Shown here piece by piece: positions 501 through 5,479 of a DNA stretch of 32,264 bases. Each line of letters begins with the position of its first letter. Position 1 is the first letter of the stretch. The position numbers were made by a program, and so were the translations under genes. The stretch spans positions 1 to 32,264 of IMG/VR virus record IMGVR_UViG_3300042452_000300. The stretch is one strand, 5' to 3'. The notes under the pieces are model-generated. The model saw nothing but the letters and a program-made list of their open reading frames with translations. It had not been told where the DNA came from and did no database searches. The DNA comes from a virus.

Positions 501-680
501 ATGACATTCGATGACCTAATCCGAGAGTGGCGATTCGCCGACCATGCCGCCAAGGCAATCGGCGTTTCGCGCACGACTCTGTATGTATGGCGCTATCGCG
601 GCATTCCTGAACACCGTCAAGCCGCAATCCGCAAGATTATTGCGGCGCGGCAAAAGCAGATGAAGCGAACCGCTAAATGA
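501..680 (+). CDS. Cro-like (YdaS/DicC-type) helix-turn-helix repressor, 59 aa
   Basis: A small protein beginning MTFDDLIREWRF. Residues about 12-40 form a helix-turn-helix (DHAAKAIGVSRTTLYVWRYRGIP), followed by a basic C-terminus (RQAAIRKI). This is the usual layout of phage Cro-like regulators such as lambda Cro, DicC and YdaS, which are 60-75 residues long. Such proteins bind operators next to their own gene and shut off the opposing early promoter. Its place as the first rightward gene, facing a leftward gene across palindromic DNA, matches that role. No CI-type repressor is visible here; it could lie to the left of the window. The stop overlaps an ATG at 677, but that frame is not thought to be translated from there. 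Confidence 0.75.
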   Translation: MTFDDLIREWRFADHAAKAIGVSRTTLYVWRYRGIPEHRQAAIRKIIAARQKQMKRTAK

Positions 681-759
681 CTTCTCCCGCCCGCGTCCGT
701 GTCGCCGAACTCCCTGCGCCCTGCATAGCTCCGGCGAGCGTCCAGACGACACAGCAAAA

Positions 760-942
760 GCCGACCTCCTCCCGGTGTGTCGTGGCGCGCGGCGGGAACC
801 TTTTTTCCGTTGGACACGAGACGGTACTGGCCTCCGGTGGAATGGTCGGTAGAATCCCTCATGGTGGGATGCCCTCGACGCTGAGCGGGATCGTGGTCGA
901 CTCAGCAACTATTTCCGATTCCGGCAAGCGCCGGTTTTTTTT
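760..942 (+). ncRNA. Structured leader or small RNA, C4-antisense-like candidate
   Basis: The stretch between the Cro-like gene and the gene at 1028 has no convincing reading frame with its own start but many hairpins. They are: 760-763/773-776, with a nine-base loop ACCTCCTCC; 807-810/821-824 (CCGT/ACGG); 826-832/844-850 (ACTGGCC/GGTCGGT, two wobbles); 854-858/866-870 (ATCCC/GGGAT); and an interleaved pair, 875-879/896-900 (TCGAC/GTCGA) with 880-885/901-906 (GCTGAG/CTCAGC), which has pseudoknot geometry. It ends at an intrinsic terminator. The first loop is complementary to the ribosome binding site at 1013-1019. Position and anti-RBS loop recall C4 antisense RNAs of P1/P7-type phages, but whether it matches that family was not tested. 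It could also be an attenuator or a put-like antitermination RNA. Confidence 0.5.
921..942 (+). terminator. Intrinsic terminator downstream of the Cro-like gene and leader RNA
   Basis: A CCGGC stem (921-925), AAGC loop and GCCGG (930-934) are followed at once by eight T residues. This is a textbook Rho-independent terminator, in the same place as lambda tR1 (after cro, before the next regulator). Read-through or antitermination would be needed to express the downstream replication genes, unless a promoter lies between here and 1028. Confidence 0.85.
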
Positions 943-1012
943 ACCTTTTTGCCGGGGCACGACGTTCGCGGAGAGCAGTCGACGTACCCGCGCCGAAATG
1001 GTAACAATTGCA

Positions 1013-1025
1013 GGAGGAGGCGTCG
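1013..1025 (+). promoter_or_regulatory. Ribosome binding site complementary to the upstream RNA loop
   Basis: A strong Shine-Dalgarno, AGGAGGAGG, sits eight or so bases before the ATG at 1028. GGAGGAG (1013-1019) pairs with CTCCTCC (766-772), and GTCG (1022-1025) pairs with CGAC (762-765), making 11 base pairs around a two-base bulge. A weaker second match joins 987-995 to 790-796. The pairing would hide the ribosome binding site, either in cis or by a processed RNA in trans. Confidence 0.5.
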
Positions 1026-1027
1026 AA

Positions 1028-1279
1028 ATGACCACAGCCCGAGCCAAATACCACAGCCTCGAAACCCGAGCCGAAGCCCTGCGCCTTCGTGCCGAGGGTC
1101 TGACCGCCAAGCAGATCTCGGAGCGGCTGAATGTCAGCACGGGCGCTCTGCACTACTGGTTCCATCACGGTGCCAAGCTGCCGGACGATGCGCCGAGGCC
1201 GACCAAGCCTAACGGCAAGTCGGGGGTGATTGCGCCGCCTCCGTTTCGCCGCGGCTCAGTTTGGGGAGCCGGATGGTGA
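1028..1279 (+). CDS. Small helix-turn-helix protein, 83 aa
   Basis: The start at 1028 is chosen for the AGGAGG Shine-Dalgarno just upstream. A longer in-frame start at 677 would run through the terminator and hairpins and is rejected. Residues about 10-45 (LETRAEALRLRAEGLTAKQ, then ISERLNVSTGALHYWF) form a homeodomain-like or Trp-repressor-like helix-turn-helix of the type seen in HTH_23 proteins and some small terminase-like proteins. The C-terminal 30 residues are Pro/Gly/Arg-rich and look disordered. Position after the Cro-like gene and terminator is that of a second early regulator (lambda cII position), but no sequence link to CII was seen. Function is inferred only as DNA binding. The 3' end overlaps the next gene by seven bases. 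Confidence 0.65.
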   Translation: MTTARAKYHSLETRAEALRLRAEGLTAKQISERLNVSTGALHYWFHHGAKLPDDAPRPTKPNGKSGVIAPPPFRRGSVWGAGW

Positions 1280-4099: not shown

Positions 4100-4509
4100 G
4101 CCAAGTCGACCTCATCCTCTCGCGGCTCGACAAGGTGCGGCAGACGGGCACGAACCGCTGGACCGCTCGGTGCCCTGCGCACGACGACAGAGGACCATCG
4201 CTATCGATCCGAGACGACGGCGGGAAGATCCTGCTGCACTGCTTCGCCGAGTGTCCGCCCGTGTCCGTGGTCGAGGCAATCGGACTGCAACTGTCCGACC
4301 TGTTCCCTGATCCGCTGGAGCGCGTCTCGCCAGGACGCAAGCCCATCCCTGCCCGCGACATCCTCGATTGCATCGCGTTGGAAGCGAAGATCGTTTACCT
4401 CGTGGGGCAGGACATCATCAACGACAAGCCGATTTCCGCAGTCGATTGGGAACGGCTAAAGATCGCGGTCCGTAGGCTGGATGCAGCGATGGAGGAGGCG
4501 CATGGTTGA
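4096..4509 (+). CDS. Primase zinc-binding (CHC2-type) protein without TOPRIM domain, 137 aa
   Basis: Residues about 18-55 carry the CHC2 zinc finger of DnaG/T7-type primases: NRWTARCPAHDDRGPSLSI with Cys-x2-His, then GKILLHCFAECPP with Cys-x3-Cys. This module reads the single-stranded template and hands the primer to polymerase. The rest (about 85 residues) is helical and has no visible TOPRIM catalytic motifs (no EGxxD, no DxD), so this protein alone is unlikely to make primers. The RecA-type helicase gene begins eight bases before its end, so the pair may act as a split version of the T7 gp4 primase-helicase, or the zinc protein may adapt host primase. The start overlaps the initiator stop (ATGA). 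Confidence 0.8.
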   Translation: MSQVDLILSRLDKVRQTGTNRWTARCPAHDDRGPSLSIRDDGGKILLHCFAECPPVSVVEAIGLQLSDLFPDPLERVSPGRKPIPARDILDCIALEAKIVYLVGQDIINDKPISAVDWERLKIAVRRLDAAMEEAHG

Positions 4510-5479
4510 CCTCGTAATCAAGGCCGAGCAGGACATGATGGATCGTGGGGAAAACCCGCCGCCGAGCAAGGGCGCGAAGTTCCTTGACGCGCGGATTGCG
4601 GTCAAGCCGAAACTGCTCTCAGCCGAGGACAAGCTGCCCGCACTGCTTGACCTGTGGGACAAGGGCATGCCGCCCGGTCATGCAACCGGCTGGCCGAGTG
4701 TCGACGAGCTTTACACCGTGGTCCCTGGGCAACTGACCATCGTCACCGGATGGCCAGGAAGCGGGAAGTCGGAATTCGTCGATGCGTTGCTCGTGAACCT
4801 CTCTCGGCAGGGCTGGAGGCTGGCGTATTTCTCGCCCGAGAACATGCCGGTCGAACTGCATCAAACCAAGATCATGGAAAAGTTCGCCGGGGCTCCGTTC
4901 GGGGCTGGTCCGCGTAAGCGAATCGGGCGTGACGAGATTGCAGGGTGGGCGAAGACGATCTCCGAGCGCATGCGATTCCTTGAGCCGGTCGAGGGTTCGC
5001 TGTCAGCGCAGGACGTGTGCTCTAGCGTCGAGAAGTGGCTACGACAGGACGACTCACCGGCAGGGCTTGTGATCGATCCGTGGAACGAGCTTGAGCACTG
5101 GAGGCCGAGCAACATCTCCGAAACCGAGTACGTGTCTTTGACGCTCTCAGCGGTTCGCCAATGGGCGCGGAAAAACAAGGTGCATGTGTGGATCGTGGCG
5201 CACCCGCAGAAGATCAAGCGGGAGGAAGGCGGCAAGCTGCCCGTGGTCAAGCCCGACATGATCAGCGGCTCGCAGCACTGGTGGAACAAGGCCGACTGCT
5301 GCATCTCCGTCTACCGCGATTACACGAAGCCGGATGCGCCCGAGGTGGATGTCTACGTGCAAAAGGTGCGGTTCAAGCACGTCGGGAAAATCGGCATGAC
5401 AACACTGGTCTACGAAAAGTCGACCGGGAAGTATCACGAGCGATCAAAGTTCCGTTCGTATGAGGAGGTGCGAGGATGA
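4502..5479 (+). CDS. Replicative DNA helicase, RecA-fold (DnaB/Twinkle C-terminal type), 325 aa
   Basis: ATG 4502 follows GGAGGAGG and is preferred to the ATG at 4481. A short N-terminal region leads to ATGWPSVDELYTVVPGQLTI, the usual entry to DnaB-family helicase cores, then Walker A GWPGSGKS at residues 83-90. Later come a Walker B-like GLVIDPWNELEH near residue 190 and WIVAHPQKIKRE near 235, then DMISGSQHWWNKADCCISVYRD. These fit hexameric SF4 helicases that unwind DNA ahead of the fork. The DnaB N-terminal domain is missing, as in T7 gp4 C-terminal or Twinkle-like phage enzymes. Translation overlaps the zinc-finger primase upstream and the small gene downstream, so the primosome parts are made together. 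Confidence 0.9.
   Translation: MVDLVIKAEQDMMDRGENPPPSKGAKFLDARIAVKPKLLSAEDKLPALLDLWDKGMPPGHATGWPSVDELYTVVPGQLTIVTGWPGSGKSEFVDALLVNLSRQGWRLAYFSPENMPVELHQTKIMEKFAGAPFGAGPRKRIGRDEIAGWAKTISERMRFLEPVEGSLSAQDVCSSVEKWLRQDDSPAGLVIDPWNELEHWRPSNISETEYVSLTLSAVRQWARKNKVHVWIVAHPQKIKREEGGKLPVVKPDMISGSQHWWNKADCCISVYRDYTKPDAPEVDVYVQKVRFKHVGKIGMTTLVYEKSTGKYHERSKFRSYEEVRG

Follow-up and report, generated by a model that had tools for sequence, protein, structure and literature searches.

The leader RNA that follows a small Cro-like gene in the viral DNA analyzed here raises the question of whether early phage genes are controlled at this locus in the manner of C4 RNA. In phage P1, C4 represses icd/ant by blocking ribosome binding, and it acts in trans as a processed RNA of about 77 nt. 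A sequence-only reading of the locus had proposed a C4-like RNA whose loop matches the ribosome binding site of the next regulator, the gene that starts at position 1028 (gene 1028). By analogy with C4 of P1, our analysis suggests that a folded RNA behind the small regulator gene probably does switch off the translation of early phage genes. Throughout, the window denotes the entire 32,264-nt viral stretch, to which all unlabelled coordinates refer (Table 1).

Table 1. Coordinates and supporting details of the features at and near the leader in the window.
Feature	Position	Strand	Details
Cro-like/HTH early regulator, 59 aa, first gene of the operon	501-680	+	PHROG 409 transcriptional regulator, E 3e-7
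C4-like P1-P2-P3 unit (predicted)	686-796	+	P1 686-697/784-796; P2 698-707/732-740; P3 746-763/773-783
P3 loop ACCTCCTCC, anti-Shine-Dalgarno	764-772	+	CCTCCTCC kept after cro in four phages; accessible
Intrinsic terminator CCGGCAAGCGCCGG-TTTTTTTT	921-942	+	Terminator scan; L003 counterpart at about 4616-4640
Shine-Dalgarno GGAGGAGG of gene 1028, proposed target	1013-1020	+	Ahead of ATG 1028; pairing reaches GTCG 1022-1025
Small HTH protein, 83 aa, proposed repressed gene	1028-1279	+	Pfam HTH_23, E 7e-8
Second GGAGGAGG, possible second target	4491-4498	+	Ahead of in-frame ATG 4502 of a helicase/primase-like gene

Three related loci were obtained from IMG/VR through searches with gene 1028, with the Cro-like gene and with their alignment. 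L002 has the same gene 1028 (80-83% identical, beginning at the same Met) and another Cro, L003 has the same Cro (88%), and the Cro of L004 is related at about 52-55%. To the left of the Cro-like gene in the window, a divergent gene (3-362) resembles a DEAD-box helicase (weak Pfam match) rather than a CI repressor, and therefore "Cro" is a name given by position and size only.

The leader contains CCUCCUCC, the complement of ribosome binding sites, in the loop of P3. GCCG (760-763) pairs with CGGT (773-776) to close this loop, and below these pairs the hairpin has a 7-bp stem (746-752/777-783), from which they are set apart on the 5' side by a 7-nt bulge, AGCAAAA (753-759). Opening the loop is computed to cost 0.38 kcal/mol, whereas the median for the remaining 8-mers is 4.4, and the loop 8-mer (CCUCCUCC / CCTCCTCC) is first or second in accessibility in each of the four folded leaders. 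The complementarity reported between the loop and the Shine-Dalgarno (SD) sequence of gene 1028 is borne out, with 7 pairs (CTCCTCC/GGAGGAG), and the CGAC/GTCG extension over a 2-nt bulge is present as described, which gives a duplex of -18.2 kcal/mol; along the sense strand of the phage, only 19 of 8059 windows of 28 nt form a better duplex with the loop (RNAduplex; best 0.25%). Two further pairings proposed for the locus fared less well. The second match, 790-796/987-995, is weak and probably spurious, as it takes the 3' strand of P1 and requires a bulge. The pseudoknot at 875-906 (TCGAC-GCTGAG ... GTCGA-CTCAGC), without counterpart in L003, is probably spurious as well: because both of its crossing loops would be 0 nt, which is sterically implausible, this segment is better read as two alternative hairpins.

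The CCTCCTCC hairpin is found shortly after the Cro-like gene in each of L002, L003, and L004, and CCTCCTCC is the only 8-mer common to all four post-cro segments (those of the window and the three relatives). None of 500 shuffles shares any 8-mer across the four segments. The product of the single-segment chances for CCTCCTCC is ~2e-9, or ~3e-7 for the three relatives alone, with the caveat that these chances are not fully independent because the window and L003 partly share ancestry. On the early-gene strand of the four phages, CTCCTCC occurs six times, namely in the four post-cro loops, in the loop of an int-alpA RNA in the window (see below), and once upstream of cro in L004. The unit 686-796 is modestly stable (MFE -47.8 kcal/mol, z -1.96), the fold energy of the leader 690-950 is ordinary for its composition (z 0.18), and the CTCCTCC count in the window equals the chance expectation. 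A chance match without function in a GC-rich region would account for the last two values; the placement common to four phages already makes chance unlikely, and we regard an absence of function as highly improbable. Judged from the sequences, the non-chance feature is the placement of the loop after cro, and not the fold energy of 690-950 or the CTCCTCC count. As a separate observation, a second CCTCCTCC hairpin (CGGCCG/TGGCCG) lies at L004 2641, on the same strand and upstream of the Cro-like gene.

Wider searches bear on how far the arrangement extends. The pattern GCAAAAG-N3-ACCTCCTCC has 6 matches in viral contigs, which we attribute to chance because none has a pairing flank, and the Cro-like protein has one match, a spurious one, in the genome collection. 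PHROG 409 in 274 genomes yielded relatives that have no such loop, and 80 terminase-related loci, many of them fragments without the early region, contain no further post-cro CCTCCTCC hairpin. Searches with gene 1028, gene 1273, and the L002 Cro recovered only the same few phages.

Stem sequences are not conserved among the loci, in a comparison of the predicted folds of four loci, which are too few for real covariation. At L003 4516-4578 the same topology recurs (z -2.07), with CCGATCC..GGGTCGG, CGTC/GACG, and CACGGA-ACCCTCCTCCA-TCCGTG. L004 has related parts, reordered with the loop hairpin first (z -2.18), and in L002 P3 alone is clear (GCGAC-ACCTCCTCC-GTCGC), with P1 and P2 not clear (z 0.10). 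The intrinsic terminator had been placed exactly, its stem occupying 921-934 and its U-run 935-942 in a clear consensus match. An extra gene separates cro from the hairpin in L003, yet hairpin and terminator remain together. In lambda, nutR sits between cro and the terminator. A transcription signal of this kind, either a nut/put-like antitermination site or a processing site at which a protein, and not an SD, would recognize the CCTCC loop, would agree with the position of the site between the Cro-like gene and the terminator and with its staying beside the terminator in L003. What is conserved, however, is precisely the anti-SD motif and not the sequence of the stems; we consider such a signal very unlikely.

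Two other readings of the region were considered and rejected. The leader as a protein-coding segment (677-1027, part of an open frame, 677-1279, in phase with gene 1028) does not look coding: the first 351 bases of the frame score -0.12 per codon, versus at least 0.14 for 351-nt stretches of the real genes of this phage, the frame includes the terminator, and its upstream part is missing from L002, where the homologue begins at the gene-1028 Met. For the opposite strand, on which GGAGGAGG would serve as an SD before a start on the minus strand, there is no properly spaced ATG or GTG, except a GTG in L003.

To which translation starts the loop fits was assessed by ranking predicted starts, after removal of the loop's own trivial antisense entry; the ranks are approximate, since the gene starts come from a simple script. 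In the window, gene 1028 is the best translation start for the loop, and rank 2 is held by the start at 4502 (-18.1 kcal/mol). This second gene, whose helicase/primase-like product (4481-5479) matches PHROG 239, probably starts at ATG 4502 behind GGAGGAGG, rather than at ATG 4481. The best start in G002 is that of the gene-1028 homologue (rank 1 of 48; site GGGGGAGGCGTCG in L002), and this site is also the best of the 9333 windows of this 37-kb phage, with 8 pairs, one mismatch, and the CGAC/GUCG extension. There the homologue is separated from the leader by two genes, and the gene that now adjoins the leader shows no fit. The next gene of G004 ranks first of 17 starts and is the best of 3050 windows. 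In G003, 1386 of 9986 windows bind better than the next gene, whose rank is 16 of 51, and the second gene after the hairpin ranks fourth.

The low rank of the next gene in G003 (16 of 51) leaves the idea of the next gene as a fixed target without support. The proposal that the loop matches the ribosome binding site of the next regulator holds for the window and for the next gene of G004, and it fails for G003, with its poor SD fit, and for the unfit next gene of G002. Since the best start belongs to an early gene in three of the four phages (gene 1028, its homologue, or the next gene), with a poor fit in G003, the stable relation is an anti-SD loop after cro and not a loop matched to the next SD. 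When loops were swapped among the four loci, the own loop was best for its own target in two of the four phages, and foreign loops bind the target in the window at least as strongly as its own loop does. The match to gene 1028 is weak evidence of a specific target, because any CCUCC loop matches any strong SD.

As the loop is constant while targets vary, the main rival is a generic anti-SD RNA without a dedicated target, which would pair in trans with many host and phage SDs by mimicking the 3' end of 16S rRNA. The constancy of CCTCCTCC while neighboring genes change and the lack of a well-fitting nearby gene in G003 both speak for it, and a precedent is provided by the alpha-r14 RNAs, in which an ultraconserved CCUCCUCCC occurs in unpaired regions and is predicted to target many mRNAs (PMC10746234). 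The flanks of the loop in G002 and G004, however, extend the pairing to one early gene, in each case the best site in the phage sequence examined, and there is one motif per RNA here versus three in alpha-r14. We consider a generic role possible, although on the unlikely side. Distance to the target bears on a different rival, a leader switch acting only in cis, in which the loop of the read-through mRNA would pair with its own downstream SD and no trans-acting RNA would be made. Such a switch would suit L004, whose leader and SD both fall within 100 nt and whose outer stem already covers the SD, and int-alpA shows a compact layout of this type; in the window, by contrast, loop and SD are separated by the terminator and 240 nt, and in G002 by two genes, which makes an exclusively cis-acting switch improbable. 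The preferred reading, held with moderate confidence as a model, is an antisense RNA of C4-like type, either a leader or a small RNA, whose constant anti-SD loop would block the SDs of early genes.

How closely this leader resembles C4 itself can be examined feature by feature. The Rfam C4 covariance model (RF01695) has no match in 1-2000 even at E<=10 and none in L002-L004 at the gathering score, and no Rfam model matched the leader 686-796. The 5' end of P1 in C4 RNA has a GGW at which RNase P cleaves (PMC5320573); P1 here opens with CCCGCC after ACTTCT, and GGW is absent by sequence. Shared with C4 are the P1-P2-P3 architecture (predicted for the window and L003, reordered in L004, and represented by P3 only in L002), the setting in a phage regulatory operon, and a P3 loop of the kind that in C4 is complementary to the SD region of the downstream gene (e.g., L175 and L168). 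The loop fits a ribosome binding site of the same operon in the window, in G002 (gene 1028), and in G004 (next gene), but not in G003. The leader differs from C4 in its stem sequences, in having no b' linker, and in the terminator and 240 nt before its target, and its loop is constant, whereas that of C4 covaries. Among the 274 sampled genomes, C4 occurs in 17, and its loop is matched by the SD region of the gene that follows (e.g., TTTCTTTCGTA versus TACGAAAGGAG). What stands of the C4-like label is thus the manner of working (a three-way fold, an accessible P3 loop against an SD, and an early operon position after a Cro-like gene), and not membership in C4. The leader should not be filed as C4, and an RNA that would work like C4 is the best-supported working model. 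In L158 (1501-1702), the C4, isrK, and c4-a1b1 models match adjacent to or overlapping one another.

A second RNA of the same phage provides a closer comparison. An int-alpA RNA (RF02996) is present in the window at 2755-2821 (54.7 bits), with loop CTCCTCCA containing CTCCTCC and with TGGAG at 2816-2820; on its 3' side, ATG 2838 is preceded by an SD (CGGAGA) that lies inside a possible small hairpin (TGCTA/TGGCA). The RF02996 model matches only at 2755-2821, and not at 686-796 even with a lax threshold. In the 274 sampled genomes, int-alpA occurs in 35. Across 26 copies, the unbroken downstream complement of the loop averages 5.58 nt, versus 4.51 nt when loops are swapped (0 of 5000 permutations); an energy-based test of own versus swapped loops, with crude loop extraction, gave a weak result. 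As the P3 loop covaries with a downstream SD-like element in these 26 copies, int-alpA is probably an antisense or leader RNA of the C4-like kind. The two RNAs have in common P1, P2, an AAAAG strand (CGAAAAG in int-alpA, GCAAAAG here), a P3 with an anti-SD loop, and a location in the early phage region. The AAAAG strand is a bulge inside P3 in the leader, in contrast to a junction linker in int-alpA, and the target of the leader is not directly 3' of the RNA. Two RNAs that work on a single principle thus seem to be present in this phage, and the Rfam-recognized int-alpA supports the reading of the leader.

Resemblance to other RNA families is more limited. The alpha-r14 or cuckoo RNAs (NfeR1) of alphaproteobacteria likewise expose CCUCCUCC on hairpins with variable stems and are predicted to act as antisense RNAs at translation starts (PMC10746234). 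They are chromosomal, have their own promoter, and carry three hairpins, each with CCUCCUCCC, whereas here a single CCTCCTCC loop is part of the cro transcript of a phage. For IsrK of prophage Gifsy-1 (RF01394), a short form and a longer mRNA from one prophage region are described (PMC4825925). The likeness consists in these two RNA forms from a single region, and isrK adjoins C4 in L158; IsrK has no sequence match to the leader and differs in fold and target.

A mechanism can be proposed on this basis. An early promoter upstream of the Cro-like gene would yield an RNA with the GC-rich three-helix domain 686-796 directly after cro, and this domain would hold CCUCCUCC open in its loop. Transcription stopping in part at 942, where the terminator would end a short cro-plus-leader transcript, would leave a short cro mRNA or a processed small RNA. 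The loop would then pair with early-gene SDs, either in trans or, on read-through transcripts, in cis, and the most likely target in the window would be gene 1028 (GGAGGAG plus GTCG across the bulge), with the helicase gene at 4502 as a possible addition. Such pairing would block ribosome binding, as C4 does for icd/ant in P1, and the output of gene 1028, and possibly of the helicase, would fall. While loop conservation, accessibility, the terminator, and the target ranks are computed, we infer transcription, a short RNA, pairing in the cell, repression, and a role in restraining early or lytic gene expression.

If this is true, C4 of P1/P7 would be one branch of a wider phage habit, in which a folded RNA behind an early regulator plugs ribosome binding sites. 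A role would also be suggested for the widespread, poorly characterized int-alpA RNAs, and phages that lack a studied lysis-lysogeny switch would gain a simple reporter test of whether RNA controls their early decisions. More speculatively, and in our view doubtful as it stands, the leader may represent, next to C4 and int-alpA, a third lineage of C4-type riboregulators in phages, with a loop fixed as a copy of the 16S anti-SD, made together with Cro, and broadly restraining early phage translation and perhaps host mRNAs.

The sequence just after the terminator has features of its own. Directly past it, GGGGCACGANNTTCGC is kept in both the window (954-969) and L003 (about 4660-4675), and it has the GG-N10-GC spacing of a sigma-54 promoter. 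In addition, AATGGTAANNNTTGCAGGAG precedes the next gene in both the window and L003, though those genes differ.
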